Assembly (NCBI RefSeq): GCF_031202265.1
Contig: NZ_CP100604.1
Location: 4,756,501 to 4,820,500 of the forward strand
DNA length: 64,000 nucleotides
From: Bradyrhizobium sp. Ash2021
Lineage (GTDB): Bacteria; Pseudomonadota; Alphaproteobacteria; Rhizobiales; Xanthobacteraceae
Reading direction: 5' to 3'
Of this stretch, positions 23,660 to 47,624 are shown one piece after another. The notes under the pieces were generated by a model. That model saw only the letters and a list, made by a program, of their open reading frames with translations. It made no database searches and had not been told where the DNA came from. A program made the translations under genes and the position numbers. The number at the start of each line of letters is the position of its first letter. Within the stretch, counting starts at the first letter, position 1.

Positions 23660-24323
23660 CTAGGCTACGGCTTTGTCTTCCTTATCCGCGCCGCGCATCA
23701 CGATCTTGAGTGCATCATCCGGCAATGGCCGCTGCAGCGCCTTCGCCTCATCCCACGGCGCGCGCATCCAGACATCGCGCTCCTCGTCGGTCGTCAGGAT
23801 CACCGGCATGGCTTTTGGGATGGATCGGGTCAACAATGGCATTCGGTGACGTGGTCAGGAAGCCGTAGACCAGATGCGGCCCGGGGATTGGCTTCGACTT
23901 GGTGCCTCTGTCGCCCTTGAACTCAGTCCAAATCCCCGCGAACGCGCAGAGCGGGCGATCATCATTCTGCGCAAACCAGACGACATCTTTCTTTTTGGTC
24001 TCAGGGTTCGGCTCCGGCGCATATTCCGCAAAGCTGTTGAAGGGCACGAGGCATCGGTTTTCAGGCTTCAACCAGCCACGCCAGTGTGGCGATGAGGTAT
24101 TGCGGATGTTCGTGACTGGCGGACCGCCCGTGCGCGGCGGGGGCGGCATGCCCCAGCGCATCGTGATCAGCTCGCGCTCATCGCCCGCGTTGCGCACTAC
24201 CGGGGCCGGATAGTCCGGGAAGACGCCGGGCATCGGCGGCAGGTTGCCGACGTATCGGTTGACCACGCGGAAGAGTGCCCGGATCGCTTCTTGGTTCGTG
24301 GTGATCGAATAGAGATTGCACAT
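23660..24323 (-). pseudogene. SRAP (YedK/HMCES-like) gene, 1-bp insertion near the 3' end
   Basis: ATG at 24323 gives [20 protein letters not shown] with catalytic Cys2, then [40 protein letters not shown], and IHPK. At about 23819 an extra base (GGGATGG for GGGTGG in the sister copies) shifts the frame; the lost tail [20 protein letters not shown] continues in another frame to 23660. Total span 664 nt is one base over 221 codons. SRAP proteins crosslink to abasic sites in single-stranded DNA. The shifted product would keep Cys2, Asn, Glu and His and might retain some activity. Confidence 0.85.
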
Positions 24324-30642: not shown

Positions 30643-31069
30643 TGCGAAGCGCCGGGAGACCGGCAAGGAGTAGAGAGTGCAAGTCCATCACGATGAAGGA
30701 GTAGCGAACCGCATCGACCCCGAGTCATGCGCAGATGCCCGCGAGGGCATCGGCGAAGCGTTGACAGGGGAGTGCACAGGCCAGCCATTGAGCCGCGAAA
30801 GTTCCCTCATCCTGGGTGCCGACGTCGTTCCGGTGACGGAAGGCAACACGGATGGGCGCGATAACGCGAGCGCCCAGACGGCCCGGCGTGGTCTTAGACA
30901 CTGGCATGTGCGGAGGCTCCTTGCTCGGGAACCGGGAGATCTCATGGTCGGCCAGCGCCAGCATGCGTGCTGCTCTGGTCCGTGTCGGGAAGGCGAGGAG
31001 CCGTAGCCGATGATGTACGATCATGAGAAGTCTGACCCCGCCATAGTAGCTGTGAAGCCGACGAACAAG
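30643..31069 (+). mobile_element. Group II intron, 5' remnant (ribozyme domain I plus start of the RT gene)
   Basis: The stretch carries sequence I recognise from Bradyrhizobium/rhizobial group II introns: TGCGAAGCGCCGGGAGACCG near the start, AGAGTGCAAGTCCATCACGA, GGTGCCGACGTCGTTCCGGT, and the typical beginning of the intron reverse transcriptase, EKSDPAIVAVKPTNK, at about 31022-31069. The match stops after KPTNK; no reverse transcriptase, maturase, or domain V/VI is present. The exact 5' limit is uncertain. Confidence 0.6.
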
Positions 31070-31204
31070 CGCTATTTCCTTGCCACGATGGACGAGAACT
31101 TGATCAAGGAAATGAAGCAGGCCGGCATCGCCATAGATAAGTCGGCGTCGGAATGTCTGGAAATCGCGGCCAAGGAGCGGTTGGCGCGGCGGGAGATGAA
31201 ATAG
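31010..31204 (+). CDS. Chimeric ORF: intron RT start fused to a ribbon-helix-helix-like tail
   Basis: 64 aa. Residues 1-20 (MMYDHEKSDPAIVAVKPTNK) are the start of a group II intron reverse transcriptase. Residues 21-64 (RYFLATMDENLIKEMKQAGI and IDKSASECLEIAAKERLARR) resemble the C-terminal part of a CcdA-type antitoxin or other ribbon-helix-helix protein: one strand followed by two helices. No CcdB-like toxin gene is beside it. The fusion is probably an accident of intron deletion, but the frame is intact and a product is possible. Confidence 0.45.
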   Translation: MMYDHEKSDPAIVAVKPTNKRYFLATMDENLIKEMKQAGIAIDKSASECLEIAAKERLARREMK

Positions 31205-31212
31205 CGGTAGAG

Positions 31213-31668
31213 CTACCGCAGGGTTTTGAAGAAATCCGCAATCTGCTCGGCCGCACGCTGGGGCCTCCTGGACGAGCACTCCCAAATGACCAGGACGCGG
31301 TAGCCTAGGTGTTCGAGTCGTTGCATGTGCGCGAGGTCTCTGGCTTTCGTCCGCTCAAGCTTCGGCAGCCAGTAGCTCCGGTTCGATTTTGGATCCGATG
31401 CCAGTGAGCAATCTTCGTGCGAATGCCAGAAGCATCCGTGAACGAAGATCGCGAATCTTCTCCGCTTGTTGGCGAAGTCTGGTTTTCCCGGAAGATTGCG
31501 CACGTTCATCCGGTACCTAATGCCGGCTTTGGAGAGTAGTTCTCTAACTACCCGCTCAGGCGCTGTACCAGTCGAGCGGATGCGCGACATGACTTCGCCT
31601 CGGCTTAAGGGCACCCTCTTGCGGCGAGGGAGCAGTTTGCGGAGCTTGGGCACTTCGAAACCTTTCAC
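31213..31668 (-). CDS. vsr: Vsr-like very-short-patch repair endonuclease
   Basis: 151 aa from GTG 31668; a TTG at 31671 and an internal ATG at 31590 (MSRIRSTGTAPERVV) are possible. Vsr signature blocks are present: EVMSRIRSTGTAPERVVREL, YRMNVRNLPGKPDFANKRRR (candidate catalytic Asp), FAIFVHGCFWHSHEDC with Cys/His positions of the structural zinc site, KLERTKARDLAHMQRLEHLG and YRVLVIWECSSR. Vsr nicks 5' of T in T:G mismatches that arise from deaminated 5-methylcytosine. The same-strand locus begins with a cytosine-5 methyltransferase, so it probably protects the methylated genome from mutation. It follows the nuclease gene by about 10 bp. Confidence 0.88.
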   Translation of the reverse strand: MKGFEVPKLRKLLPRRKRVPLSRGEVMSRIRSTGTAPERVVRELLSKAGIRYRMNVRNLPGKPDFANKRRRFAIFVHGCFWHSHEDCSLASDPKSNRSYWLPKLERTKARDLAHMQRLEHLGYRVLVIWECSSRRPQRAAEQIADFFKTLR

Positions 31669-31677
31669 CAAGTACAG

Positions 31678-32823
31678 TTATTGGCATCCCGGTGTCATAT
31701 CAGAACGAATGACGATCTGCGGAATTTGGCTCGTCGGCATCAGGACCGTAGCAAAGTCGGCTGCAAGACGCCCGTCGCGCCGCATCTCCGCTCCGACGAT
31801 TCTGCATTCGGCCCCGATTAGATGTGACGACAAATCGCCGTGTATCGAGCGGCGGGTCACCAGGTTCGCCGCAGTCATCCCAGGCTGGGTCGAAGCCACG
31901 TTTGCCAGGGCTACGGTCTGCAAATCTCCGTCGTTCCCCTGATGAAGGGATTCGAGGGAGCCGGCGGCTGCGACGGCTCTCGGAGGCAGGCCGCCTGCGC
32001 TGCCTCGAGCAAGCCAGGTCCAGAAGGCCGGGCAAATAAGCTGAAAGCGGCAGGTGCTGCAAGACGATTCCGATGGACTTGCGAAGTCAGAGGCCTGCGT
32101 CACGGACGACAGCGCGCGATTCCAGATGTCGAGATCTTCGACCGCACGATCGGCTTCGGCGTCGCATTCCGACGGCGCAAGGCCGAATTCGGCGGTCTCG
32201 CCAGACGCGCCGGAGATGATGCCTTTCTTCGGCCAAAAGCCGAGGCTTTCGGCGATTATCGCGGCGTAGATCTGGATCTGCCGCCGATTTCGTTTGAAAA
32301 ATTCCGCGCCGACGGGCGTCGTCTGGTCCGGAAGATTCGATTTGATGTCGGTTACCGAAGACCCGTCGAACCGGTCCGGACGACCGATCAGACGGCCGCC
32401 CCTCGCGACCAGTCTTCTTTCCGTACCCGATCGCATTGGCGACCGTTGGCCGACGCTGCCGGGCGGCCTCCTTGCTGCATTGAGTTCTGCTCCAGAGCTC
32501 AAGGCACGCTGCCTGATGAGAAAATAAGACGGCCAGCGACTCGGATCGGAGAACCTTTGGTCGAACTGGTGAGATCCGATCCGCTGAACGAACTGCGCGA
32601 TTTCGGCGTCCCACGCAGCTTCGAGATCGGGGATGTGTTCGTGCCTGGCTCTTTCGAGGAGAGCGTGCAGCGCCGTTCCGAGCCACAGGCGCGGGTCGTG
32701 CAACACCCATGATGCGGCCTCGCGGCAGGAGGCCAGGCCGGCTCGCAGCCGGCACAGCTTCATTTCTTCTGCCAGTGTAGGGCTTGTGCTCGCAATAGGT
32801 CCGATGACCAAGGGCGCCGCCAT
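31678..32823 (-). CDS. PD-(D/E)XK nuclease, RecB/Cas4-like, with cysteine cluster
   Basis: 381 aa from ATG 32823, 2 bp after the helicase stop. The order of blocks follows the PDDEXK_1 superfamily: WLGTALHALLERAR (GTxxH motif near residue 50), GRPDRFDGSSVTDIKSNLPD (Asp, then DxK), RRQIQIYAAIIAE (QxxxYA), and a C-terminal SSCSTCRFQLICPAFW cluster that could hold iron-sulfur or zinc as in Cas4/AddB relatives. A fourth cysteine for a 4Fe-4S site may be C-terminal or near the N-terminus (LCRLRAGLASC). It is tightly linked to the helicase, so joint action on DNA is likely. It is not a core gene of described Druantia systems. Confidence 0.75.
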   Translation of the reverse strand: MAAPLVIGPIASTSPTLAEEMKLCRLRAGLASCREAASWVLHDPRLWLGTALHALLERARHEHIPDLEAAWDAEIAQFVQRIGSHQFDQRFSDPSRWPSYFLIRQRALSSGAELNAARRPPGSVGQRSPMRSGTERRLVARGGRLIGRPDRFDGSSVTDIKSNLPDQTTPVGAEFFKRNRRQIQIYAAIIAESLGFWPKKGIISGASGETAEFGLAPSECDAEADRAVEDLDIWNRALSSVTQASDFASPSESSCSTCRFQLICPAFWTWLARGSAGGLPPRAVAAAGSLESLHQGNDGDLQTVALANVASTQPGMTAANLVTRRSIHGDLSSHLIGAECRIVGAEMRRDGRLAADFATVLMPTSQIPQIVIRSDMTPGCQ

Positions 32824-32825
32824 GG

Positions 32826-35800
32826 CTAAAGCGGACGCCGCAGGGCCTCGAACACCGAAACGAACGATTGATCGGGGTCGATGCGGAGCCGGTGGACCCG
32901 CTCGGCTTCGTCGCATGCACGCGCCATATCTGGCCCCAGATTATTCCGATCCGTCAGCCAAAGGGGATGGGTGACCATCTTAACGTCGGTGCCGTTCGTC
33001 ACCGCCGGCAGGCCTGCGATAGTGATCTGCCTGTACCCTGGGCGCGCGTTGAGCAGAGTAACCGCAGCGATGTTCGCAACGCGCGCCCATCTGGGCGATG
33101 CCAGCGAAATCGGAGCCGCCGCATCCAGCGCCAGCGATGCGAGGTCGACCGCCAGTCTCCAGTCCAGGAGGCTGTGGTATTGGAGGTTGCTGTAGCTGCG
33201 CAGGCAGTCGGGACATGACGTGTCGCAGGAGTCGGCGTGAAGGTTGCCGACCAGCGTCTCAAAGAAGCCGTTGTGGCCGGGCTCGGAGATCAGCCTGAGC
33301 AGGTGCTCCGCGACTGCAGGCTGGCCGAGGTGTGTGGCGTACCCCGCACCGTTTTCCAGCGTGTCCGAGAGGAATATCTGGCCGGTCACGCCGGCGGCGG
33401 GATCCTCGATGCTGCGTATGCCGGACTTCAATTCATAATCGTGGATGTCCAGCAGAACGGCCGCCGCCCGTCTGAGCATGAAGGCAAGCGAGTAGAGGGC
33501 CGCGCGTCCCTGGGGGGTGCGGGGATCGGCTCCTCGGCCCGGACCGAAATCTCTGATGCCCAGCAGCATCATGTCCGTTTCGCTGATCGCCGCGAGTGCG
33601 CAAGCTATGGGGTTCTCGAGAGCAGCCAGCCGCAGGGGAGGGGCGCGTCTTCCCTCGGACGCGGCGAACTTCGCATCTGCCGTCTGGGCGGCGGCAATGT
33701 CGATCTTTGCCTGCGAATTGGGCCACACTCGCGCGAGATGATAGAGATTTCCTCCGTTGTCGTTGATGACGTAGAGGCTGCCTACACCGGCGCCGACTTG
33801 AAGGTTCAGGTGCGGATTGATCGCGAACGGCGGGCGCCCGACTTTCGGGCGCGCGGCTCTCGGCACGAAATCAAACGAACCGTCGTAGTCTCTGGCCCAC
33901 CTGCTTGAACTGTAAAATCCCTTCGGCTGGCGAAGGTCGAGGGCCCGGTATTCGCGCTCCCCGTTGCCGGCCGCGGCCGCGCACGTAGGACATGCCGGGC
34001 CGCCGGGATTGACCGTCTCCACATGCTGGCAGTTGCCGCAGACGGCGACCGGGATGGACGGCCCCAGTGGATCGGCCTCTTCGACGGCGCGCTGTCCCTG
34101 CCTGTAGTAGTGGGTCACACCGATCGCCGTGTGGATAGCGCGTTCCTTCACCGTTTCAGCGCCCGGCGCGAACATGCTCACCGCGAGTTCGAGGTCGCGG
34201 TCGATCACATCGCGCGGGGGCCACGCGCGGGGATTTCCGTGATACAGATTCCGCGCCCGGGTCGGGAACCCGAACATGGGAAGAATGCCACGGTTCGCGA
34301 GCCTTTCGCTCAACCCATCCTGGATGAGCATTTGATCCTGGCTCGCGAGCGTGACCCGCTGAACGAGGTCGTTGCGGACGAAATTCAGCGCTTCCGCGCG
34401 CGACGCCGGATCCGCCGCCAATACGGTGCCGGTCAGAAGCAGGTCGCACGCGTGTTCTACTTCTGCCGGATGCCGGGCGATCCATTCCTGAACGATCTCC
34501 GCCACGGTGTTTCCCGCGTAGCCGGCGGGCGTAGCGTCCGGAGGCTGGGTCCATCCGTCTGCCCGTCCGAACTCTCCGTGGACACTGTCGCCATCGGAGC
34601 AGGCAAAAAGCTGCAGTTCCGAGAAGGCCGCGCGCAGCACCTCCTTGCTGAGGACCCTGCGAAGTATCTGCAAGCGGTTCGTGTCGACATAGGGTGGCGG
34701 AGGCGGATCCGACGTGATGCGGTCGGGACGCTGGAAATAGTAGTCGTCATGGCTGCGCCCCCGGCAGAGCGTCAGCGCGATCGAAACTGCCGCTCCGCGT
34801 CTTCCAGCGCGCCCGACGCGCTGCTGATAGTTGAAGCGCATTGGAGGCATGTTGGCCATCATGGCCGCGAGCAGCGAACCGATATCGACGCCGGCTTCCA
34901 TGGTCGTCGTGACGCTGAGAAGATCCAGATTCTCGGTAAGCCCGTGCTCGTTGCCCACATTGACGTTCTGGAACAGCCGCTGCCGGTCTCGGGCGACGAT
35001 CTTGTCCGTCTGTCCCGTCATCTCGGCGCAGTTCAGCCGGAAGACGGGACCTGCCCGAGTAGCGAGCCAGCTGTAATAGTCCAGCCGGTCGAGCGCGTTG
35101 TCGTCGGCAATGCGGCGCGGCTGGTCGAGACGCGACTCGCAGTTGGAGCAGATTCCTCCGCTTCGGTGCAGATGGATCCGGGAGCAGCGGTCGCACTGAA
35201 AATACGTCTCTCCGGCGCCTCTAGCGAATAACCGATCGTATTCGAGAATGCCCTGGTTCAGGACACCGGAGCGCGTGAGCAGACCGGTGACGTCCTGTTC
35301 GAAGGATGCAGGGTCCCGCGCAGCCAGATTGGCGACAGCCGCGAGGTAGTCCCGGGCGTATTTCGGGAGCCGGGGGTCGTCGTCGGTAGCCCGGTGAGTC
35401 GTGATCCTCCGTCTCTTTCCCAGCATCCGTATGCAGCTTTCGGCCGCCTCTTCGAGAACCTGGTCGGCGGCCGGCCGGAACTGCGGATTGAACGTCACCA
35501 CGCCGAGTTTCAGCGACTCGAAATCTCGCCGTCCTCCGGAGAAGATCGATTCCGCGATCGCCTCGCGTTCGGCATTCTCGATCTTGTTTTGATGGGCGCG
35601 CTCGTCCGGAGACAGGTTGTTCCGAAAACCCGGCGGGTTCAGCTGCCAGTCGAGGAGTCTGGGCCACTCGCCTTGATTGGTCTGGGGATTCGTCCAAGTC
35701 ACGCTCCGGTCGACGCCGCCGGGATTCATCCCGGTCGCGAGCAGTCTGCGCTGCGCCTGCGCCTGGAGGCTCTGGATCGGCAGTACGCCGCTGCGGGCCT

Positions 35801-38465
35801 GAGCAAGGATCTGATCGGCGAACTGCTGCTGGGTCATTCCGCCGACGGCCGACGGCATCGCTCCTTGACCCATCGCGACGGCCATGATGGCGAACGCCGC
35901 GTCGGGCCGGGCGGATCCGAACCGGTCGGCGAGCGCCGCTTCTTCGGCCGTCAGGTTCTCCCTTCTTGTCCGGCGTTCAAATGCCAGGATGGCGCGTGCC
36001 TCCTCCGTCACGCCTTCGACCAGAACTTGGCGCATGGCATCGAGCCAGTGAGACTTCGCGACGCCGACTGCTAGTTTCGCCGCGTCCTGGCGGCTGTCGG
36101 AGAACAGGACCAGCTTGCGCCTGGAGTCTTCGGCCGCCTGCGTCGCACCTTGAGGAATGGGCGCTATCTCCCGCAGGAGTGCGTCCGTCAGCACCTGAGC
36201 CGTCTTTTGAAAACCGGTGCGCTGAGTGCGTATCGGCGCCACGCTCGCCAGCTTGCTCCAGTTGGCTTCGCACCTCGGGCAGACCGACGGCCGGTCGTTT
36301 TCCGCGGACTGCGCGGCCAAAGCTGCTGCAGGGACGGGCACCTGATGGAGTTGCGGAACGTAGTATAGCCAGCCGGTCGCCGAAGCAGCAGTCCGCGCAA
36401 GCTGGATTTCTCCCGTTCGGTGGTCATAGACGGCACGACGCCATTGGCGCCGCACGCCCTCCTGGGTCCAGGTGTCGTTTTGCGGCGCTTGCAGTGCTGC
36501 GGCCGTTCGTGCGGGCCAGTAGACCGCGTAGTTTGAGTAGTGTCGGTCGCTGGCCGAATGGTCTGGCGCCTTCTCGATATTGGGATCGTCAGGGACGAGC
36601 GACCAGACCCCGGGTCTCAGTTCGCGCCGGTGCCCGCCGAGGAAGACGTCTCCGCACGGCTCGCAGTAGAGCATCTCCAGAACGCGCGATCCGCAAGGGC
36701 AAGTCGTCGCCGGCCTGTCGAAAAGCCGCCCCACTAGGATGTCGGGCTCGGTTCGCATCACTTCGGTGCAACGAGGATTGGTGCACGACCAGATGCCTTG
36801 CACGTTCCTGAAGAAGACGTGCGTCCGCAGCGGGAGGAGGGGGGCGTCGCTGGAATTCCTGCTGCGCGCGAGGGACGCGATCAGCCCCATTCCTGCGGAA
36901 GCGGCTTCATCCGCCCCGCTGTCTGGAAACAAAGCGGAGCCGATCGCGGCCGGCGTCAGCGGACGCACGGCTGGATTTTCATCGGTGCCGCTGTTGCACG
37001 CCGCCCTGACCGCTTCGGCTGCACCGATCGTACCGAGCGCATCGCCCAGGCGCCGCTCGATCGGCAGTTCGGTGCTCGGAGGGGCGGCGCCGGCATCGGC
37101 GCTCAAGGCATCGACGGCCGCGTGGATCGCGTCCTGGTCGTTCACCTCGATCGCTTGGCCCAGCCGAGAGAACGAGTCGGCCAGGCCGCGTACGCGGTCC
37201 CGTGATCCGGTCGGGAGCGGCACGGAGCCGCCGCGGATGAGTTCGAAAGGGGTAGACCTGCCGAAGAACTGGCGCAGATAGTCTTGCGCGCGTGCTTCGT
37301 CCGACCCCAGCGACGCGCTTGATGCGAGAATGCGAAGTTGCGGATGGTCCGGATGGAGTCCGATCCGGTCCAGGAGGACCCGAAGTATGTAGGAGACTTC
37401 GGTGCCCGGAGTGCCCCGGTAGGCATGCAGTTCGTCGACTACAAGATGGAAGACGTTGGTGGGGTCGTTGTCGAGCCAGGCGCGCGTCGCGTCGAATATC
37501 CGCGTCTCGACATCGCGCATGAGCATGATGTTCAGCATGCTGTAATTGGTCACCAGGATGTCGGGGGGCGCGTCCTGCATGTCCCACCGGCTCCACATCT
37601 CGCCGCCGTCCAGCCGAGGGAAGAAGCGCTCGGCGTCCGTCCCGGCGACCGCGTTCGCGGTGTCCGTGAGCCGCTTCAATTCGTTGCGGAGAGTCGTTTC
37701 GGCTTCGGTGCTTGTGGGACGCCCTGAGACGGGTGTCGATCCGATGTAGCGGCCGAACCAGAAGCGGTTGCCCGGCCGGTTTGCCGACAGCCATCCTCGG
37801 ATGGCATCGCTATCCAGAGACTGGCGAAGCCGCGTCATCTGGTCTTCGGCCAGTGCGTTCAGCGGATACATGACGAGTGCACGAAGGCCGGGAAGGCGCG
37901 ATCCTTGTTCGTGGTCGCGCTGGCCGAGACGCGAATGATGCAGCCGCCGGCCGGATCCAGGTGCGGGGCTCATGTTCCACCAGTCGTTCTGCGGAGCGGT
38001 GGGAATGGCGGGCCATCGAGCCGACTCCCGGATAAGAGAGGCTAAAACGGGCAAGTAGATCGATTCCGTCTTTCCTGAACCGGTGCCCGTGAGAATCACG
38101 GCGTCACGGCTCTCGGCGGCCGAGATCCGCAGCATGTCCACTTGGTGGCGGTAGAGTTCAATCTGCGAGTCGGTCCTCGACAGGAACAGGCCGTTCGTAG
38201 CGAATTGCCCCAGATCGGCAATCGCCTGCGCGGACCATCCGGCGGCACCGGTCAGCGCTGATTGAGCGGCTTGGACGACGTTCTGGCGGCTTCCCGCGTA
38301 AGGCGGCTGCGGTTCGATAAGAGGATCGCGATAAAGGACGCCATCGCGATCGAGAAGGTCGCGGCGCTCGTTCACCAGTTCGTCGAACCGAAGGTCGAAC
38401 GGACTGTCGAAGTATCGCAGGTACGCATCCTTGAGTCCGCGAAAGAGGGCTGCCGTGTCGGTCAT
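32826..38465 (-). CDS. 1879-aa DEAD/DEAH-type helicase with DUF1998-like C-terminus (DruE-like)
   Basis: Very large SF2 helicase. Walker A GTGSGKT is at residues 127-133, motif Ia in RALVMYPLNALAEDQMTRLR, NYSMLNIMLMR, DELH box at about 344-347 (HLVVDELHAYRGTPGTEVSY), motif III as SSAS. The second RecA domain has TTTMEAGVDIGSLLAAMMAN and QQRVGRAGRRG near residue 1215. Zinc-type cysteine groups occur at about residues 585-625 (CTNPRCTEV, CPCGSRVLEMLYCEPCGDVF). The DUF1998/MZB-like end has LSDTLENGAGYATHLG and CDTSCPDCLRSYSN near residue 1750. Size and domain order match DruE of Druantia systems. Start ATGA overlaps the stop of the 290-aa gene. Confidence 0.88.
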   Translation of the reverse strand: MTDTAALFRGLKDAYLRYFDSPFDLRFDELVNERRDLLDRDGVLYRDPLIEPQPPYAGSRQNVVQAAQSALTGAAGWSAQAIADLGQFATNGLFLSRTDSQIELYRHQVDMLRISAAESRDAVILTGTGSGKTESIYLPVLASLIRESARWPAIPTAPQNDWWNMSPAPGSGRRLHHSRLGQRDHEQGSRLPGLRALVMYPLNALAEDQMTRLRQSLDSDAIRGWLSANRPGNRFWFGRYIGSTPVSGRPTSTEAETTLRNELKRLTDTANAVAGTDAERFFPRLDGGEMWSRWDMQDAPPDILVTNYSMLNIMLMRDVETRIFDATRAWLDNDPTNVFHLVVDELHAYRGTPGTEVSYILRVLLDRIGLHPDHPQLRILASSASLGSDEARAQDYLRQFFGRSTPFELIRGGSVPLPTGSRDRVRGLADSFSRLGQAIEVNDQDAIHAAVDALSADAGAAPPSTELPIERRLGDALGTIGAAEAVRAACNSGTDENPAVRPLTPAAIGSALFPDSGADEAASAGMGLIASLARSRNSSDAPLLPLRTHVFFRNVQGIWSCTNPRCTEVMRTEPDILVGRLFDRPATTCPCGSRVLEMLYCEPCGDVFLGGHRRELRPGVWSLVPDDPNIEKAPDHSASDRHYSNYAVYWPARTAAALQAPQNDTWTQEGVRRQWRRAVYDHRTGEIQLARTAASATGWLYYVPQLHQVPVPAAALAAQSAENDRPSVCPRCEANWSKLASVAPIRTQRTGFQKTAQVLTDALLREIAPIPQGATQAAEDSRRKLVLFSDSRQDAAKLAVGVAKSHWLDAMRQVLVEGVTEEARAILAFERRTRRENLTAEEAALADRFGSARPDAAFAIMAVAMGQGAMPSAVGGMTQQQFADQILAQARSGVLPIQSLQAQAQRRLLATGMNPGGVDRSVTWTNPQTNQGEWPRLLDWQLNPPGFRNNLSPDERAHQNKIENAEREAIAESIFSGGRRDFESLKLGVVTFNPQFRPAADQVLEEAAESCIRMLGKRRRITTHRATDDDPRLPKYARDYLAAVANLAARDPASFEQDVTGLLTRSGVLNQGILEYDRLFARGAGETYFQCDRCSRIHLHRSGGICSNCESRLDQPRRIADDNALDRLDYYSWLATRAGPVFRLNCAEMTGQTDKIVARDRQRLFQNVNVGNEHGLTENLDLLSVTTTMEAGVDIGSLLAAMMANMPPMRFNYQQRVGRAGRRGAAVSIALTLCRGRSHDDYYFQRPDRITSDPPPPPYVDTNRLQILRRVLSKEVLRAAFSELQLFACSDGDSVHGEFGRADGWTQPPDATPAGYAGNTVAEIVQEWIARHPAEVEHACDLLLTGTVLAADPASRAEALNFVRNDLVQRVTLASQDQMLIQDGLSERLANRGILPMFGFPTRARNLYHGNPRAWPPRDVIDRDLELAVSMFAPGAETVKERAIHTAIGVTHYYRQGQRAVEEADPLGPSIPVAVCGNCQHVETVNPGGPACPTCAAAAGNGEREYRALDLRQPKGFYSSSRWARDYDGSFDFVPRAARPKVGRPPFAINPHLNLQVGAGVGSLYVINDNGGNLYHLARVWPNSQAKIDIAAAQTADAKFAASEGRRAPPLRLAALENPIACALAAISETDMMLLGIRDFGPGRGADPRTPQGRAALYSLAFMLRRAAAVLLDIHDYELKSGIRSIEDPAAGVTGQIFLSDTLENGAGYATHLGQPAVAEHLLRLISEPGHNGFFETLVGNLHADSCDTSCPDCLRSYSNLQYHSLLDWRLAVDLASLALDAAAPISLASPRWARVANIAAVTLLNARPGYRQITIAGLPAVTNGTDVKMVTHPLWLTDRNNLGPDMARACDEAERVHRLRIDPDQSFVSVFEALRRPL

Positions 38466-39334
38466 GCAAGCCTCAATCCCGTTATCGACACGGCCAGATG
38501 AGCGATGCGGTGCGATATCCCTCGGAACGCAAGATCCCGCTTCTCACGTCCGAACTCGGGCAGCATGCCGGAGCAAAGCGCGAGCGACCGGGAAATGAGC
38601 GTCGGGGGTCTTAGCGCAGCCGGTATTCGCAAAGACCGGGATTTGAGATCCAGCTGGAGCTTTCTGGCGCCCGCAGCCACGGCCAAACGTCCGGCGGCCG
38701 AGTCGATCTCAGACTGGGCGTCCTTGCCGTCCTTCATGAGAACGATGGAATTCCAGTCTCGCTTTATGTGGAAGAGTCCGCGAACGGCGTTCCGAGCTTC
38801 TTCGATGGAGGATGCCGTCCAGCGCAGATTGGATTTCGAGAACCTGCGCACTTCTTCCACTTTTCCCGCTACCATCTGGCAAGGAGTCCGCGGCCATGTG
38901 GCAATCGTCGGAAGGCTCGCGAGCAGAGTGAAGGCAGCGTCTCGCTGCCAGTTCAGCGCGGCCGCAGTCGCGATCGCACAGAGATCGGAGGTCGTTGCGG
39001 CTGTCACCAGCAGGCAGTGCGGCCGCTCGCCTTGGGCGATGGATTGCATCTCGGCGCCCTGATCCGCGCAAGCCTTGGCGAGCCGGCTCACCAAGCCGCG
39101 AGTTCTCGCGCCGCACAGCACTGCGGTCGCGCTTTGCTCGGACTCTTCTCCGAGCGCGGCCAGCACCGGCGGCGCGACGCGCCAGCGATTGTCCGCTTCC
39201 AATTCGACGTGCCCGAGCACGGCCAGATCCTCGATGATCCGGTATGGACCGCCTCCCGCGACGAGATCTGAGGGCAGATCGTTCGTCCGGCCGTTTTCTC
39301 GGTATGAAATCCACTCCAGCAGGCGGTCGGTCAT
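38462..39334 (-). CDS. 290-aa protein of the defence locus (DruG position), unknown fold
   Basis: ATG at 39334 overlaps the upstream stop (ATGA), and its own stop overlaps the helicase start, so it is translationally coupled on both sides. The N-terminus (MTDRLLEWISYRENGRTNDL and GGGPYRIIEDLAVLGHVELE) looks like a winged helix. The middle has TAVLCGARTRGLVSRLAKAC, CLLVTAATTSDLCAIATAAA. The C-terminal region lacks motifs I know. No nuclease or ATPase signature is seen. It may recognise DNA or bridge the ATPase and helicase; this is inference from position. Confidence 0.7.
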   Translation of the reverse strand: MTDRLLEWISYRENGRTNDLPSDLVAGGGPYRIIEDLAVLGHVELEADNRWRVAPPVLAALGEESEQSATAVLCGARTRGLVSRLAKACADQGAEMQSIAQGERPHCLLVTAATTSDLCAIATAAALNWQRDAAFTLLASLPTIATWPRTPCQMVAGKVEEVRRFSKSNLRWTASSIEEARNAVRGLFHIKRDWNSIVLMKDGKDAQSEIDSAAGRLAVAAGARKLQLDLKSRSLRIPAALRPPTLISRSLALCSGMLPEFGREKRDLAFRGISHRIAHLAVSITGLRLA

Positions 39335-42300
39335 CGGAGGCGCTTCCATCGCCTGGCTTCCCGGGTGGCGGTCCGCCATGCCGCTTTCGCGGCCGGCGTC
39401 TCGGGCCTTATCGGAACGCGGCGCGCCGCCATGTCTCTGATCTTGGATGCCCATCGGCTATCGAGCTTTCGGGGCTGCTGGTCCGCTGCTGCAGCCGGAA
39501 AGTCGAGCACCAGGATTTTGCTGTCGTCCTTTCGTCCTCCGGATGATAGGACGGCGAACAGCGGCTCGAAGGCAAGTGCGGCGAGCGCCGCCGGAGCGTC
39601 CTGCCTGATGGTCAGCATCTTGATTTCGTGCCGGGCGCCGAGAGCCGTCACGCTCGAAGCCGGTTCGATCGCGAGCACCGTTCGGCCATCGGGAGAAAAG
39701 ACCATCGCGCCGCAAACCGCCGCGGTCCCCGCAAGCGCCGGAGCCAGCGAAGCATGCGCCGTCCACGGCTCCCAACCTTCGCGAAGAGCGGGATCGGGCA
39801 TGATGTGGTAGGTCGACGACCTTCCCGGAACGATGTCGACGAGGTGCTGTCCGGGCGCATCCCAGCCGGGTGCGCTCCAGCTGCCATCCTCATCCCTCTC
39901 CGCTGGTGTCTCGTCGATGAACACTTGGCAGTTCGACGGCATTCCCTCGATGCGGATAAGCGGCGGTTCGCCTTGCGCGTAAGCCGCGGACCGAATTTCG
40001 AAGCCACCGTGGAGAGTGATGACCGTCTCCGCGCCGGGATCCAGCGGCTTCAGCCACTCCAGCGGTGAATGAAGAGCTCGAACCGGCGCATAGCCGTCCA
40101 GCACGGTCCATCCGGAAGGTAAGCCTTCGAAATCTGCCAGCCGCCGAAGCGCAGGGGAGCCCGCTTCCGTCGCAGCGGCCTCGATCGCGGCGGCGTGCCG
40201 TTCGCGGCAAACGATTGTGCTTCGACTGCCCAGCGGCGCGGCGGAAGTTGAAACGTGGTCGGGCTCGCCGGGCGCCGCAGTAAAAAGATGGAACGGTCTC
40301 GCGCTCCGGATCCACTCGAGTTTCTGCGTTTCGTCCTTTAGACGAATTTCGGCGTCCAGAAGACCAGTGGTCCACTCCAGGTCGAAGTCATCGTACCGTG
40401 ATTCATCGAACGTCTGCACGGCGGCTTCCCCGATATCGATCTCGTCGGGAAAGCCTTCGGGCTTGAGTAGCACGGCGGCTAGAGAAATGCGCTTCCGTAT
40501 CGTATCGATCATCAGGCGCAGCTTGGCATCGGCCTGGCGCAATCTGGATGATGTTCTTCTTTCGCGGCGGGGTTCAGCTTCGTCCCGCTGAGCGATCGAC
40601 CTTCGCGCTCCACGTCTGTCCCGAAAAACGGCTTGGAGCCGTGATGTGGCCGGCACGGCGCTTTCCTGCTCGAACGTTTCTGCACCGATGTCCGAACGGC
40701 TTTCGTCGGACGGTTGATCGCCGACGGCAGGCTCGGACCGCTGAAGAGCGCTCTCCGACGGTCCGTCGACGGGCTCGGACTTTTCGGATGCGCTGCGGTC
40801 GGTATGCTCGGGGGCGGCTAAGCGCGCATCTTCCGGCGGCACCTGGAGCGCATCGTCGTTCGGCGCCGGCAGATCGTCAGGCTGTTCCGTGCCGGCGGCC
40901 TCGGGCTCGCTGGAAAGTCCAGCCGGAGGTGAAATGTCTTCGTCCGGCACGCGGGTTTCATCGGCGGCCGTTTCCGGCGCGGTCTCTGACTCCGGAATGC
41001 CGGCAGCAAGAGTTTCGGCAGCGAGAGTCATATCGCTGCCAGGGTGCGGAGATCCTCCGTCCCCGATGTTGCCGGGCTCCATTTCGGAATGCACATCGCC
41101 ACCCGGGCTGGGTCCTCCACCTTGCGGAGGCGGAGCCCGCAGATCGAATTCTTCGGCGATTTTCCTGAACGGACTGGGCGTAGAAGGCAGCGAGTGAGCC
41201 GTGAGTAGGCTGTCCAAATCCGGCGGACTGCGTTCGGCGCCGTTCCACGCCACGATCGGTTGCCAGCCTAGCGCCTCGAGGCGCCGCGAGATGTCGGTCA
41301 CCGTTTCGTCCCACGGCGAAATTGCAGCTGTTTCGTTGACGAGAGTTGCGACCTTGCCGTCCTTCTCGAGTACCGTGCCTTCGGTTGTCGCGCGCTGAAT
41401 CTTCCAGCCCAAGGACAGGGCTGTCCGCGCGTCCGCCGCTGCGGGCAAGCCGGGCTGGGCAGGGGGCAGCCGCTCATCTTTCCTGCAGAGGATGACGATG
41501 CCGTGTGCGGCCTTCTGCGCCACGTCGGCGAGGCCACCCTCATGGAGTTCGTCCATAGTAGCGACGATGACATCTGCGGCCTGCGTGCCGGAGGCCAGTG
41601 ACGCGCTGCAGCCGTGCTGGATCAGTTCGGCGACGAGGAGTCCGGCTGCGGCCGACAGCTGCTCGAGGCTCATCGCTGGATCCTCGCGGACCAGGAGGCC
41701 GAAGCTGCCCGGCGCCCCGAGCCAGCGGCTCTGCTGGCCGGATGCCGCCGCGGCGACGTCGGCATCCGCTTGGCGGTGGGGAATTTCCAGCAGGATTGCA
41801 TCGTCGTGCTCGGCAGCGCCGAGGCGGTGCACCGTCGGTCCGGAGGAGGCGATTTGCCTAAGATCGTCCGCGGAAAAGTCGGATGCGTCGTCGATCACTA
41901 CGGAGTCGAACCGACTGTTCGCGACCGCATCCAATACCTCCTGTACGGTTGTCGCTCGCCTCACGCACGGTGGCCATTCCGTTTGCGCCTGATATTCCGA
42001 GATCGTCGAGAGCTCGAGCAGCAGATCCAGTATCTGAGGGCTGTACGATGGCGCGGCCGGCGAGGCGCCGACGTCTGCGGCTTCCTTTGAATACTCCGCG
42101 ATCTGCTGGGCCAAGCCTTCTGTAGCTTTCAGCAGGTCACCGAAGCCGGTGCTCGCGAACAGGTCCCGAAGCTGCCTGAGTTCGCTGGCCGCCTTCGACC
42201 GGGGGTCGGCTGCGCTCGCGCGGCCTAGGATCTCCGGTGCATCTTCGATCGGAGCGCTGAAAAAGCGCTCGAAAAGCGGTTTGGGCAGCGAGGCGCGCAA

Positions 42301-43422
42301 TGAGCCAAGATGCCCCTGCAGGTGCCTGGCGGCGTACCTCGCTTCCCGCAGTTTCTGGACGAGCGTTCCTACGTCCCGCTGAAGCGATGCGGGACGCTCC
42401 GCTGCAGGGAGCGCGAAGCTGCTTAGTGGCCTGCTTCCGTACTGCGCTAACAGCGGCTCGAGAGCGGCGCTGTCGTGCCGGTAGTCTTGCAGAGCGGCAT
42501 CGAACGTTCTGACGGCGGCGACGGTGCCCTGGTCGGGCCTCATGCGCATGAAGTATTCGATGGCCTTGGCCGCCTCGTTTCCGTTGCCGGCGGCGAGCGC
42601 TGCCTTGAATGTCCCGTGCTTCCTGATCAGAGCGATTGCGCTGCCGATGGTACGCACCATGAAAGACGCGTGCCTGTGATATTCCGAAAGAGTGCGGTCG
42701 GAAGACCGGGGGCGAAGCAGACTCTCGACGGCTTTCGAGACCAAGCTTTCCTCGCTCGCCTCCTGCTGCTCCGACACGATCTTGGAAACGCCCGCCTCGT
42801 ACTCCTGGTCGGTCGCGAGAATGAAGCCCAGCGCCTCGTCGTTCGGCGGCACCTCCACGGGGCGGCCAGCAACGAGTTCGTCGACGTCTTTGAAAGTACG
42901 GCCGGCTCTGGCGTTCCCGGTCCAGAGCACGTCGGCGATCCTCGACGCATCTTGCTCCGCAAGCGAAAGGGACTCGGTCACGCCCGGAGCGAGAGCACGC
43001 TCGGCCACGACGCTGCCTTCGATTTCTGCCGGCGAGATGTCGTGCGTTTTCGCGAGCTCGCGCGCTTTCTCGAGAATGCGAACCGCGGCACGAGCAGCGG
43101 CAGGATTTGACTTCGCACGCGCTTCGACGACGCTCGCCGGCCGGGCGGCCGGCGGCGGGAGTGCGGGGCTCGATGCCGGATGGTCGATTTGAGCGCGGTC
43201 CGACAGAACCTTGTGGATGTCGCGAATGAGGCTGTAGCCGAGCGGCCGGTCGAGTATTTGGCTCGATCCGACTAGGAGGCAGGTCCTGCCGGCTCGCGCA
43301 GCCTGGGAAGCGATCGCGTTTGCGAGCACGGACTTGCCGGTTCCACCGCCGCCCGCGACGTCGACCGGGCCGGCAGCGGACTTGCGGAGCGCAAGCGCCT
43401 GTGCGGGATCGAGGATGATCAT
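39331..43422 (-). CDS. 1363-aa P-loop protein of the defence locus (DruF position)
   Basis: Start ATG 43422. The N-terminus is a Walker A in an SF1/UvrD-like context, DPAQALALRKSAAGPVDVAG then GGGTGKSVLANAIAS (P-loop residues 24-31). A long helical insertion (about residues 90-480) contains EKARELAKTHDISPAEIEG. A Walker B-like strand DSVVIDDASDFSADDL is near residue 510. Around residue 720-740 SRRLEALGWQPIVAWNGAER could be a degenerate nuclease-like strand. Residues about 760-940 are acidic/proline-rich and probably disordered. The C-terminal 400 residues look beta-rich (GGFEIRSAAYAQGEPPLIRI). No complete helicase motif set is visible. It overlaps the 290-aa gene by 4 bp. Confidence 0.75.
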   Translation of the reverse strand: MIILDPAQALALRKSAAGPVDVAGGGGTGKSVLANAIASQAARAGRTCLLVGSSQILDRPLGYSLIRDIHKVLSDRAQIDHPASSPALPPPAARPASVVEARAKSNPAAARAAVRILEKARELAKTHDISPAEIEGSVVAERALAPGVTESLSLAEQDASRIADVLWTGNARAGRTFKDVDELVAGRPVEVPPNDEALGFILATDQEYEAGVSKIVSEQQEASEESLVSKAVESLLRPRSSDRTLSEYHRHASFMVRTIGSAIALIRKHGTFKAALAAGNGNEAAKAIEYFMRMRPDQGTVAAVRTFDAALQDYRHDSAALEPLLAQYGSRPLSSFALPAAERPASLQRDVGTLVQKLREARYAARHLQGHLGSLRASLPKPLFERFFSAPIEDAPEILGRASAADPRSKAASELRQLRDLFASTGFGDLLKATEGLAQQIAEYSKEAADVGASPAAPSYSPQILDLLLELSTISEYQAQTEWPPCVRRATTVQEVLDAVANSRFDSVVIDDASDFSADDLRQIASSGPTVHRLGAAEHDDAILLEIPHRQADADVAAAASGQQSRWLGAPGSFGLLVREDPAMSLEQLSAAAGLLVAELIQHGCSASLASGTQAADVIVATMDELHEGGLADVAQKAAHGIVILCRKDERLPPAQPGLPAAADARTALSLGWKIQRATTEGTVLEKDGKVATLVNETAAISPWDETVTDISRRLEALGWQPIVAWNGAERSPPDLDSLLTAHSLPSTPSPFRKIAEEFDLRAPPPQGGGPSPGGDVHSEMEPGNIGDGGSPHPGSDMTLAAETLAAGIPESETAPETAADETRVPDEDISPPAGLSSEPEAAGTEQPDDLPAPNDDALQVPPEDARLAAPEHTDRSASEKSEPVDGPSESALQRSEPAVGDQPSDESRSDIGAETFEQESAVPATSRLQAVFRDRRGARRSIAQRDEAEPRRERRTSSRLRQADAKLRLMIDTIRKRISLAAVLLKPEGFPDEIDIGEAAVQTFDESRYDDFDLEWTTGLLDAEIRLKDETQKLEWIRSARPFHLFTAAPGEPDHVSTSAAPLGSRSTIVCRERHAAAIEAAATEAGSPALRRLADFEGLPSGWTVLDGYAPVRALHSPLEWLKPLDPGAETVITLHGGFEIRSAAYAQGEPPLIRIEGMPSNCQVFIDETPAERDEDGSWSAPGWDAPGQHLVDIVPGRSSTYHIMPDPALREGWEPWTAHASLAPALAGTAAVCGAMVFSPDGRTVLAIEPASSVTALGARHEIKMLTIRQDAPAALAALAFEPLFAVLSSGGRKDDSKILVLDFPAAAADQQPRKLDSRWASKIRDMAARRVPIRPETPAAKAAWRTATREARRWKRLR

Positions 43423-43428
43423 CGCAGA

Positions 43429-43461
43429 CTAGCCACCCTGAACGCTTATCGATGGATTCAT
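43429..43461 (-). CDS. Possible 10-codon leader peptide before the P-loop gene
   Basis: A strong ribosome site (GGGAGGGGG) precedes ATG 43461, which opens MNPSISVQGG and a TAG; the P-loop gene starts 6 bases after that stop. The best ribosome site of the region thus serves the mini-frame, and the big gene may be read by coupling. Length alone gives no proof. Confidence 0.3.
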   Translation of the reverse strand: MNPSISVQGG

Positions 43462-43629
43462 ATTTGCCCCCTCCCGTGCGTTTTCTTGGCCGGGTTGTAA
43501 CCCACTGTACACGCGCGCCGAAATCTACCTCAACAGTTAATTTGTTGACATGGCTAGGGAATTCTGGGGGGCCTACACAGACTTTCGAACTATTTCGAAG
43601 GATTCGCCTGGTTGGTCGCGGTGCGGGCG

Positions 43630-44790
43630 CTAGATAGCCCTCAGCAACCTTTGTGCCGCGCTCGCTACCGCATATCCAAGGAGGGGAGGGACGGCGTTGC
43701 CGACCTGCTTTAGCTGCTGTCGCTCGCTCCCAACGAAGACGAAACCATCGTGGAAGGACTGCAGCCTCGCCGCCTCGCGCACCGTAATCCAGCGGTCGTG
43801 AGTGGGATGAATCCACTCCGAGAGATCGCGCTGCATCTGCGCAAGAATGGTATAGGACGGCTCATCAGGATCGAGACGCCGCCACTTGTAAGGACGGGTG
43901 CCTTTCCACAGCGTGGCGGGGAGGGAATCTCCGCACATTCCGGGCTTCATTGCCCTGACTATGCGCTTTCGCCGCGCTTCGATACCCTTCGTGTGATGAT
44001 TGTGCAGCAAAGCCGCGCCGTCCAGGTTGGCGTTCTTCCAATGCTTGGAGATCAGCGGGCTTTCGCAGTCCAGCCGCATTGCCCGCTGGTAGTCGGACGG
44101 GATCTTTAGCCGAAGCTTTGGATATGGCAGCGTGCCGTCATCAAGCGATACCCTTCGGGGAAGATCCGAGATCGCCTCCCGTACGGTTATCTCGCGCTCG
44201 CTTTGGTTAGCGGAGAGATGCCGATTAAAGAGGACCGCCAGGTCGGTTGGCGACGCAAGGTCGTTACGGGTCCCGACGAAAAAGACCCGTCGGCGGTGCT
44301 GCGGGACGCCGTATTCAGACGCTGTTAGAGGGACGAGGATGGTGTTGTGATATCCGGCCCCCTTGAGCGCAGAAAAAATCAGGTCCCGGAAATGGCCGTT
44401 TTTCATGGCCACCATGTTCGGAACGTTTTCCATTATGAACGCCTTTGGCTTCAGCGCCTTCAGCACTCTGGCGAATTCGAGATAGAGGAGATTTCTCGGG
44501 TCCTTTAGGTCTCGCGGCCCAATCTGGCTAAATCCTTGACAGGGCGGCCCGCCGTAAACTAGGTCCACGCCGCCATCAATGAGCTCACGTTTCGACGGGA
44601 CGCCCGGCTGCGCATCGATCAGAAAGCGCGTCACGTCACCCCGAAACATCGGTACTTTGGGAAAATTCGCGCTGTGCGTCCGGATCGCGTATCCATCCAT
44701 TTCGACCGCGCACACGACTTTGAAGCCCGCGAGGCGAACCCCCTCGCAGAAGCCGCCGGCACCACTAAACAAAGAGACCGCGGTGGGCAT
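43630..44790 (-). CDS. DNA (cytosine-5-)-methyltransferase (DruM position)
   Basis: 386 aa with all main C5-methyltransferase motifs: I FSGAGGFCEGVRLAG, IV GGPPCQGFSQIG with catalytic Cys (near residue 82), VI MENVPNM, VIII QHRRRVFFVGTR, then a target-recognition region (about residues 190-300) and X KQVGNAVPPLLGYAVA. The enzyme methylates cytosine at C5 using S-adenosylmethionine; the target sequence cannot be read from the protein. It is the first gene of the minus-strand defence locus, 207 bp upstream of the P-loop gene, and pairs functionally with the Vsr gene at the far end. Confidence 0.93.
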   Translation of the reverse strand: MPTAVSLFSGAGGFCEGVRLAGFKVVCAVEMDGYAIRTHSANFPKVPMFRGDVTRFLIDAQPGVPSKRELIDGGVDLVYGGPPCQGFSQIGPRDLKDPRNLLYLEFARVLKALKPKAFIMENVPNMVAMKNGHFRDLIFSALKGAGYHNTILVPLTASEYGVPQHRRRVFFVGTRNDLASPTDLAVLFNRHLSANQSEREITVREAISDLPRRVSLDDGTLPYPKLRLKIPSDYQRAMRLDCESPLISKHWKNANLDGAALLHNHHTKGIEARRKRIVRAMKPGMCGDSLPATLWKGTRPYKWRRLDPDEPSYTILAQMQRDLSEWIHPTHDRWITVREAARLQSFHDGFVFVGSERQQLKQVGNAVPPLLGYAVASAAQRLLRAI

Positions 44791-45454: not shown

Positions 45455-46116
45455 TCAGGCTGCTTGCACGTCTTCCTTATCCGCGCCACGTGCGACGATC
45501 TTCAGCGCGTCATCCGGCAACGGCCGCTGCAGCGCCTTTGCCTCGTCCCACGGCGCGCGCATCCAGACATCGCGCTCTTCGTCGGTCGTCAGGATCACCG
45601 GCATCGCCTTCGGGTGGATCGGTTCGACCACCGCGTTCGGCGTCGTCGTCAGGAAACCGAAGACGAGGTGAGGGCCGGGGACCGGCTTGGACTTGGTGCC
45701 CCGGTCGCCCTTGAACTCAGTCCAGATGCCGGCGAAGGCAGCCAGCGGCCGGTCGTCGTTGAGTGCGAACCAGACCACGTCCTTCTTCTTGGTCTCCGGG
45801 TTCGGCTCTGGCGCATACTCAGCGAAGCTGTTGAACGGGACCAGGCACCGGTTCTCAGGCTTCAGCCAGCCGCGCCAGTGCGGCGACGACGTGTTGCGGA
45901 TGTTGGTGACAGGTGGTCCGCCGAACTTCGGTGGCGGCGGCATTCCCCAGCGCATCAGCGTCAGTTCGCGCTCCTCGCCGACGTCGCGCAGCACTGGCGC
46001 GGGATAGTCGGGAAACACGCGGGCATAGGCTGCAGGTTGCCGACATAGCGATTGATCACGCGAAACAGGGCGCGAATCTCCTCCTGGTTGGTGGTGATCG
46101 AGTAGAGATTGCACAT
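45455..46116 (-). pseudogene. SRAP (YedK/HMCES-like) gene, 1-bp deletion near the 5' end
   Basis: ATG 46116 reads [20 protein letters not shown] and [13 protein letters not shown], then a missing base near 46020 breaks the frame. From [11 protein letters not shown] onward the normal frame runs to TGA 45455-45457 with [40 protein letters not shown] and [20 protein letters not shown]. Span 662 nt is one base short of 221 codons. An in-frame upstream start could still give a protein but without the catalytic Cys2. This copy should be inactive. Confidence 0.85.
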
Positions 46117-46207: not shown

Positions 46208-46657
46208 TCAGTCTTCCGAACGGGGATGCCGCGGCTGCCAAGCTAATTGTAGCAAGGTCGCTGCGGGACGTCGGCCCGCTTTGACGCATTTGCGGCAGCG
46301 CAGCCGACTGGAGAGATCATGCACGAAAGTGGTCGGCGGGTGCTTCATCGCCGCGAGGTCGACGTCGCTTGCCGTCTTGCATCGTGCGCACTGGATCTCC
46401 AGCCAGGGAAAGCCGCCGTTGACGGCCTAGTCGATCGTTGGTGACGGATCGATCGGCTCGCCGTCGCTCCACATCCGCTCGTTCCAGCTTTCGCAGAGCA
46501 GCTTGTCGGCCTGCTGGATCATCGCTTCGCCCTTTGCCCGCATCTCGGCCGACTGCGTGGCCAGGATGCGGGTCATGGCGCGCGCCTTGCCGAGCTCCTT
46601 GTTCAAAGCCTTCCGGTCGCCGCCCGAAAGGGGCGTGGGATGATATTTCGGGGCCAT
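46208..46657 (-). pseudogene. 149-codon zinc-ribbon protein gene interrupted by an in-frame amber codon
   Basis: ATG 46657 gives MAPKYHPTPLSGGDRKALNK, then ARAMTRILATQSAEMRAKGE and ends at codon 77 TAG (46427-46429). In the same frame after the stop: AVNGGFPWLEIQCARCKTAS, DVDLAAMKHPPTTFVHDLSS, RLRCRKCVKAGRRPA and a TGA at 46208-46210. Together these look like one protein with a CxxC ... CxxC ribbon. A CAG to TAG change would explain it. The truncated 76-aa N-terminal product may still be made. Confidence 0.65.
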
Positions 46658-46703
46658 CCGGACATCCAAGCGCAGTGAAGTCGCATCGGCAGCCCTGAGC
46701 GAT

Positions 46704-47450
46704 CTAGAGGTCGATCAAACCGCCGTCGACGAACAGTTCGGCGCCGGTGGTGTAGGTCGCATCGGCGGCGAGGTAGAGGGCCGCGGCGGCGACTTCGGCG
46801 ACGGTGCCGGTGCGGCCGAGCGGAATGCGGGTCTTGGCCCCCTCGATAAAGTTGTCCTTCTGAGCCGCCGTGAGGCCGCCTTTGTCGAGGATCGGGGTGA
46901 CGATCGGACCGGGGCTGATGGTGTTGACCCGGATGCCGCGCGGCGTCAGTTCCTTGGCGATAGTGCGGCCGAACGAACGCAGTGCCGCCTTGGTCGAACC
47001 ATAGACCGTGCTGCCCCCTAAGCCGCCGTTCGCGCCGGCCACCGAAGCGGTCAGGATGATCGCGCCGCCGTCCGGGATGACAGGGATGGCGTGCTTGACC
47101 AGGAAGAATGCGCCCTTGACGTTGATGTTGAACTGGCTGTCGTAAAAGGCCTCGTCGACCTGCGCGATCGGCGCGAGCTTGGCGATGCCGGCGTTGACGA
47201 ACAGGACGTCGATGCGGCCGTGTTTGCCCTTGACCTGGTCGACCAGGGCCTTGGTAGCGGCCACGTTGCCCGCGTCCGAGACCAGCACCTCGATCCCGGG
47301 GAGTGCCGCCTTGGCGGCTTCCACCGAGCGCTCGCTGGAGCCGGTAACGACCACCGTCGCACCTTCGGATTGAAAGAGTTTGGCGGTCTGCGCACCGATA
47401 CCGCTGGTGCCTCCGCTGATGAGAGCGATCTTGCCGTCGAGCTTGGCCAT
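46704..47450 (-). CDS. Short-chain dehydrogenase/reductase (SDR)
   Basis: 248 aa classical SDR. Cofactor motif SGGTSGIGAQTAK (TGxxxGxG), NAGIAKL, catalytic Ser in TASVAG, and YGSTKAALRS with Tyr/Lys (YxxxK as VYGSTKAA). The C-terminal FVDGGLIDL is usual. NADP(H) preference is suggested by the SSERSVEAAK region, weakly. Substrate unknown. Start at ATG 47450 (47453 also in frame). Stand-alone gene between the amber-interrupted gene and an SRAP fragment. Confidence 0.9.
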   Translation of the reverse strand: MAKLDGKIALISGGTSGIGAQTAKLFQSEGATVVVTGSSERSVEAAKAALPGIEVLVSDAGNVAATKALVDQVKGKHGRIDVLFVNAGIAKLAPIAQVDEAFYDSQFNINVKGAFFLVKHAIPVIPDGGAIILTASVAGANGGLGGSTVYGSTKAALRSFGRTIAKELTPRGIRVNTISPGPIVTPILDKGGLTAAQKDNFIEGAKTRIPLGRTGTVAEVAAAALYLAADATYTTGAELFVDGGLIDL

Positions 47451-47590
47451 CAAAGTTTCCTGACTGGAGTGGGTTGCTGTGCCCGAGAGAGATGGGGGCC
47501 CCTATGGCGCGAGCAATGGCGCCGGCGGCCGACTTTTGCCGAGCACTACTCCTCGAAACCCGGCCAGCACCCGTCATCTTCGTGTCTTCT

Positions 47591-47624
47591 CCTGGTTCGT
47601 GGTGATGGAGCAGAGATTGCACAT
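47591..47624 (-). pseudogene. SRAP 5' fragment (11 codons)
   Basis: ATG 47624 reads MCNLCSITTNQ and then stops matching. This is the conserved start of the SRAP family, with nothing further. It marks a fifth, deleted copy. Confidence 0.6.

Follow-up and report, generated by a model that had tools for sequence, protein, structure and literature searches.

Druantia and DISARM are defence systems known to have a YprA-family helicase in common (PMC12458937). Druantia type IV is described as DruE and DruF together with DruL, without DruM and DruG (PMC8565338), and the components listed for DISARM type II are DrmA, DrmB, DrmC, DrmE and DrmMII (PMC9252829). The locus described here consists of six minus-strand genes at positions 31213-44790 of a 64,000-nucleotide stretch of the Bradyrhizobium sp. 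Ash2021 genome (contig NZ_CP100604.1, positions 4,756,501 to 4,820,500; hereafter the window). On balance it is probably a Druantia type IV system, of a subgroup with a methyltransferase and DruK, in which DruF has gained an N-terminal module (N-module) resembling superfamily 1 (SF1) helicases, and which works as proposed below. It is a variant of a known Druantia system, and its unusual feature is a module common to Druantia and DISARM.

All six frames are free of internal stops and follow the order given by the original prediction. The first gene encodes a C5 cytosine DNA methyltransferase (DCM) of 386 residues (43630-44790). It is followed by the type IV DruF-position protein of 1363 residues (39331-43422), a DruL4-like protein of 290 residues (38462-39334) and DruE, a YprA-type superfamily 2 (SF2) helicase of 1879 residues (32826-38465). 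A DruK-like PD-(D/E)XK nuclease of the Cas4/RecB type (381 residues, 31678-32823) and a Vsr mismatch endonuclease (about 152 residues, 31213-31671), the TTG start of which is uncertain, complete the series. The 4-bp overlaps joining the second, third and fourth genes are exact ATGA overlaps, at 39331-39334 between DruF and DruL and at 38462-38465 between DruL and DruE. If DruK is read from its first ATG it has 412 residues and overlaps DruE; the ATG at 32823, just past the DruE stop, gives the 381-residue form and agrees with where the relative in genome G327 starts. The same six-gene order recurs within Bradyrhizobium in G327 (L033/L034), G989 (L138) and U87765 SZCCT0048 (L098), and beyond the genus in L043, L044 and L046, the DruL of L046, hidden behind an antisense frame, being located by tblastn; the arrangement is therefore not due to chance. 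Five of the genes were located in Bradyrhizobium CSS354 (L047), where Vsr was not found. Judged by length, L036 and L046 denote the same contig, as do G1154 and L047.

The locus had been read as Druantia type II, of which the Druantia part stands and the type does not. Searched against PADLOC, the 1879-residue protein does match DruE as anticipated, over residues 2-1878; DruE4 ranks first with 1735 bits, above DruE2 with 1600 and 1547 bits, a modest margin of 135 bits. In the type II control L037 the order is reversed by 1154 bits (DruE2 2368, DruE4 1214 bits), and the proteins of this control match DruF2 (2e-245) and DruG2 (3e-144). In the type IV controls L089 and L086 DruE4 is first by 50 and 150 bits. 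Since the DruE margin alone is modest, the neighbouring genes decide, and together with the first rank of DruE4 they make the locus type IV-like and not type II. The 290-residue protein matches DruL4 (PDLC00057, 3.6e-24), with no DruG profile listed and only a weaker match to the C-terminal part of the long DruF2 profiles. The 1363-residue protein has no DruF2 or DruG2 match in PADLOC at E-values up to 1; its best match of any family has an E-value of 0.02, and none reaches 0.001. DruG likewise gave no match to any of the five non-DCM proteins at E-values up to 1 (for DCM the matches are the best 25 of 65 families). The assignment of the 1363- and 290-residue proteins to DruF and DruG by gene order was accordingly abandoned, except that the former, which no PADLOC DruF profile recognizes, is placed at the type IV DruF position by its C-terminal module (C-module). 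The tail nuclease, previously regarded as a non-standard part, matches the PADLOC DruK profile (2.3e-25) as well as PDDEXK_1 (42 bits).

A classical type II system (DruM-DruF-DruG-DruE) plus extra genes would explain the broad order of a methyltransferase, two proteins and DruE, as well as the likeness of DruL to the C-terminus of the long DruF2 profiles. Given the lack of a DruG or DruF2 match for the 1363-residue protein and the reversed ranking in the type II control, this alternative is very improbable. The prediction had also allowed that the neighbouring genes might fit DISARM or a plain restriction-modification (R-M) family better, and both labels were rejected on profile searches (PADLOC, Pfam and NCBIfam). 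The DISARM likeness consists of a helicase-core similarity to DrmA of 33.9 bits at best, with no DrmB listed, and the DCM scores 205 bits to DrmMII.

The type IV assignment was extended to relatives by a DruE-alignment profile search of genome contigs, in which 101 relatives were confirmed and the best 80 loci kept. DruE is present in all 80 by construction. By profile search of open frames, 72 of them contain the DruF C-module, at least 74 DruL, and 34, 23 and 15 contain DCM, DruK and Vsr, respectively, anywhere in the locus; the DruL figure is a minimum, since the DruL genes of L046 and L113 escaped the frame search and were picked up by tblastn. In the 42 complete loci (flanked by 2.5 kb or more on either side) the counts, for DCM, DruK and Vsr near the DruF-DruL-DruE trio, are C-module 40, DruL 40, DCM 24, DruK 16 and Vsr 10. 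The C-module thus recurs with DruL in most loci, which makes it a marker of the DruF position in type IV. In the window it comprises residues 926-1363 (39334-40647) and is mainly beta, with a possible immunoglobulin (Ig)-like sandwich at about residues 1132-1209. No solved relatives of the C-module, DruL or DruK were found by sequence, and Foldseek gave no match to the C-module at an E-value of 0.001. PADLOC annotates DruF as a protein of unknown function. When 61 of the 72 DruF-position proteins and that of the window were scanned against PADLOC (11 cut, short or near-duplicate proteins being omitted), the DruF2 profile PDLC00023 matched all 31 from other clades and 16 of the 31 from the clade of the window, the window's protein being among the 15 missed. 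Profile-based surveys may consequently score such loci as incomplete. Two further observations concern DruE-like genes. Genome G211 (L036, L040) carries a type IV system plus a Druantia locus with DruD1 matches beside a DruE-like gene. The window genome itself contains, at G000:C1:8218870-8220021 (L002-L004), a 507-residue frame whose likeness to DruE is confined to the initial 400 residues of the latter, in three pieces that are 35-46% identical.

The N-module (residues 1-790, 41053-43422) is an N-terminal extension of DruF that was found at this place solely in Bradyrhizobium; in the survey, residues 1-780 have counterparts in two of the 80 DruE loci, both of this genus. In the predicted structure its roughly 780 residues adopt an SF1-helicase-like fold with two RecA-like domains and a Walker A motif, and some 370 helical residues are inserted between Walker A and motif II. 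Walker A (GTGKS at 27) is intact, and motif II (VVIDDAS at 508) contains DD instead of the DE normally found in SF1 helicases. All of the 34 sequences compared, the most distant being 38% identical to the window, have this DD pair (D511 and D512). The N-module is most likely an ATP- and DNA-binding part that serves the YprA-family helicase as an ATP-dependent sensor or loading gate and does not work as a processive helicase. It could instead be a relic that is inert or has a structural role only, namely a defunct helicase joined to DruF by chance and retained as a scaffold in the place of the membrane anchor, as the altered motif II and the low confidence between the domains of the model might suggest. 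A relic is unlikely, given that Walker A is nearly invariant over the same 34 sequences and that the N-module is found on two dissimilar subunits (see below).

Twenty-seven of 50 N-module homologues have no C-module match; some of these lie on short contigs and may be cut, and others may be split genes. These proteins (P0025, P0030 and P0032-P0056; 771-1089 residues, with P0045-P0056 measuring 862-956) come from metagenomes, some of them on long contigs. Among the IMG/VR viral contigs, a single-sequence query capable of finding close relatives only gave six pattern stretches, none of which was confirmed, and no N-module was found among the PLSDB plasmids. A weak similarity to PADLOC mad8 of the MADS system, with E-values of 0.0007 (L127:613-5991) and 0.02 (window:39331-43422), possibly reflects the P-loop only.

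The second subunit that carries the N-module, again at its head, is DrmE. The module was searched for in 296 genomes of the family, 397 of the order, 289 of the class and 265 of the genus, sets that overlap and for which cut-offs differ. Strong matches occur as Druantia fusions in the window genome (G000), G327, G989 and G1154. Two fusions of another kind are in G236, which belongs to a different genus of the family (42% identity), and in the Bradyrhizobium genome G1149 (39% identity). The G236 protein (1792 residues) ends in a DrmE match of 88.7 bits and that of G1149 (1725 residues) gives 97.5 bits (NF038316, cut-off 80). After the fusion in G236 come genes for a NERD-UvrD helicase, DrmA, DrmB, a Vsr-like protein, a C5 methyltransferase and an AspBHI/Mrr-type endonuclease. 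In G1149 it is followed by a NERD helicase, DrmA, DrmB and a Vsr-like gene, and no methyltransferase was matched within the 19.5 kb read. The DrmA proteins of these DISARM-like loci score 929 and 943, just below the equivalog cut-off of 950, and DrmB scores 442 against a cut-off of 240. Among the scanned proteins no DrmC was identified, and the list of genomes that gave a DruE match does not include G236. That DrmE and the DruF C-module are homologous was considered as an explanation for the common N-module and is unsupported: hhalign, run with the single sequence of the G236 protein, gives a probability of 0.1%. As DrmE and the C-module are dissimilar, it is the module and not the whole protein that DruF and DrmE have in common. 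Weak matches were also obtained in G659 of the family (E-value 7e-4) and in three genomes of the order (2e-6 to 1e-5, over 68-124 positions). The two DISARM-side copies are long branches that meet, and no history of the N-module is recoverable from them.

Where Bradyrhizobium DruF has the N-module, related lineages carry a predicted membrane anchor. In 20 of 72 DruF loci a hydrophobic segment that begins no later than residue 75 (19-residue mean Kyte-Doolittle value of 1.7 or more) is followed by a long stretch before the C-module, as would be expected for an anchor judged by hydropathy alone. The DruF-position protein L046:6871-9132, from Propylenella, is one example of such a predicted segment with a long linker. 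In other clades the N-terminus is a soluble DruF domain that matches the PADLOC DruF profile at about residues 3-250. In a 73-sequence DruE tree made by a quick method, the four rows with the N-module cluster together (support 100), and the label changes once on the tree compared with 3.9 times in shuffles. This group joins, again with support 100, L061, which is without a hydrophobic segment, and a clade of five rows with the predicted anchor and one cut row, which is mostly from Hyphomicrobiales; the branching order among the three is unsettled. It is plausible that the membrane anchor was replaced by the N-module in Bradyrhizobium. More tentatively, and with the balance somewhat against it, the N-module may be a transferable, ATP-driven unit that does the sensing or loading for defence helicases of the YprA family, fused to DruF in Druantia IV and to DrmE in DISARM, and occupying in Druantia the anchor position of related lineages. 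If this were true, the two systems would have in common an interchangeable trigger step acting before their helicases. The open full-text literature on Druantia type IV, DruF and DrmE/DISARM (subscription papers being mostly outside it and supplements not covered) yielded nothing on the N-module or the fusions. No full-text article joining Druantia and Bradyrhizobium was found, and among the DruF literature matches listed only the PADLOC paper is, by title, about defence.

DruE contains Walker A (GTGSGKT at 127), DELH at 344, motif VI (QRVGRAGRRG at 1215) and seven CxxC matches. In its last 100 residues, compared over 68 sequences, conservation of at least 90% is confined to W1793, H1833-L1835, F1872, R1876 and P1878. 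By sequence, the SF2 helicase motifs are intact and the C-terminal part is without a conserved nuclease motif. DruK could supply this activity. At least 90% of 23 DruK sequences conserve C55, C286, C289, C295, H84, D181, K192, Q213 and Y217, and the window motifs together with these sequences present the set of H, D, (D/E)xK, QxxxY and four cysteines that characterizes nucleases of the Cas4/RecB type.

The window holds a methyltransferase although type IV is described without DruM. The best PADLOC match of this DCM is MTase_II (371 bits), with DruM2 at 253 bits, and Pfam PF00145 gives 213 bits. It has PPCQ at 82, ENV at 121, RRR at 166 and GNAVP at 364, which we take to be catalytic motifs. 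Among the complete loci DCM accompanies DruK in 15 of 16 (Fisher p 0.00026). A 26-row clade of the DruE tree differs in that its 13 complete loci contain no DruK, no Vsr and a single DCM (L089), from which it follows that these three genes are separable from the trio. It might accordingly be supposed that methyltransferase, DruK and Vsr do the work as an R-M-like unit, with the trio an associated neighbour, and the DCM is indeed nearest to type II R-M methyltransferases. DruK resembles Cas4/RecB-type nucleases and lies directly after DruE, however, no target-recognition domain is reported for it by Pfam, and the trio is bound together by its 4-bp overlaps, all of which leaves such a unit decidedly improbable.

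Vsr is probably the mismatch-repair partner of DCM. It scores 124.2 bits to TIGR00632 (NCBIfam cut-off 97.85), matches PADLOC Vsr and aligns with E. coli Vsr (1cw0, 9.8e-26), and in complete loci it never occurs without DCM (10 of 10, p 0.002). That it is instead the effector nuclease of the system is less probable by a wide measure. Vsr-type domains of ARMADA helicases are predicted active nucleases (PMC12458937), and the DISARM-like locus of G1149 holds its Vsr-like gene without a matched DCM; both the above-threshold score of the window copy and its constant association with DCM argue for the repair role.

Gene content, family assignments, conservation, fold class and the DrmE fusions are observed here; we infer every activity and the order of steps in the following scheme. 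The methyltransferase would mark host DNA as self. DruF, through its possibly Ig-like C-module, and DruL would sense or hold infection-associated DNA or protein, the N-module serving as the ATP-dependent gate, sensor or loader for the DruE-type helicase. DruE would then unwind the target, DruK would make the cut, and Vsr would repair T:G mismatches arising from deaminated 5-methylcytosine. The anti-phage role of the locus is predicted from sequence. Precedents are the proposed division in Druantia III between DruH with Ig-like domains as the likely sensor and DruE as the effector (PMC13192584), and the limitation of the DISARM DrmAB ATPase by methylation (PMC9142583). According to a review, type I Druantia is evaded by a phage protein through which methylation of the phage's own genome is promoted (PMC12904381).

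Outside the six genes, a terminator-like hairpin (31204-31219, minus strand) lies at the Vsr stop codon on the strength of a consensus match alone; the region contains 10 hairpin-type terminator sites against 11.9 expected from shuffles, and the counts of the promoter and terminator scan were close to shuffled means. A group II intron-like stretch at 30649-31068 (RF02005 at 30680-30901, 190.9 bits) ends about 145 bp from the Vsr stop, and elsewhere in the genome it has one full copy (98%) and partial copies (95-97%). To the right of the locus are Mutator-family and DUF772 transposase genes (47876-49207 and 55389-56771). The frames at 23748-24323, 59209-59778, 45455-46114 and 46603-47622 comprise two minus-strand frames that begin with the same 10 residues and are presumably SRAP/YedK-like, and two apparent frame-shifted remnants of the same gene.

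The presence of the N-module on both DruF and DrmE points to a common, exchangeable activation step and gives both proteins a testable role, and the predicted N-terminal anchors of many type IV DruF proteins would place part of the defence at the membrane. Compared with known systems, the locus agrees with Druantia type IV in that a single operon encodes DruE4, DruL4 and a protein at the DruF position, and differs in its added C5 methyltransferase, DruK and Vsr, in the SF1-like N-terminal part of DruF, and in a DruF that no PADLOC DruF profile recognizes. With Druantia type II it shares a methyltransferase placed first and a giant YprA-type helicase; it differs in lacking matches to DruG and, for the 1363-residue protein, to DruF2, and in a DruE nearer to DruE4. 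The type III DruH-DruE pair resembles it in the proposed working of an Ig-like-domain sensor with DruE, and differs in the J-like domain and nuclease activity reported for DruH (PMC13192584). The N-module shares two RecA-like domains and Walker A with the SF1 helicases UvrD and UPF1, and is set apart from them by its large helical insertion and the DD of motif II. Finally, DISARM type II resembles the locus in that DrmE carries the N-module of DruF in two genomes, G236 also having Vsr-like and C5 methyltransferase genes, whereas DISARM has split DrmA and DrmB and no DruE, DruF C-module or DruL was matched there.

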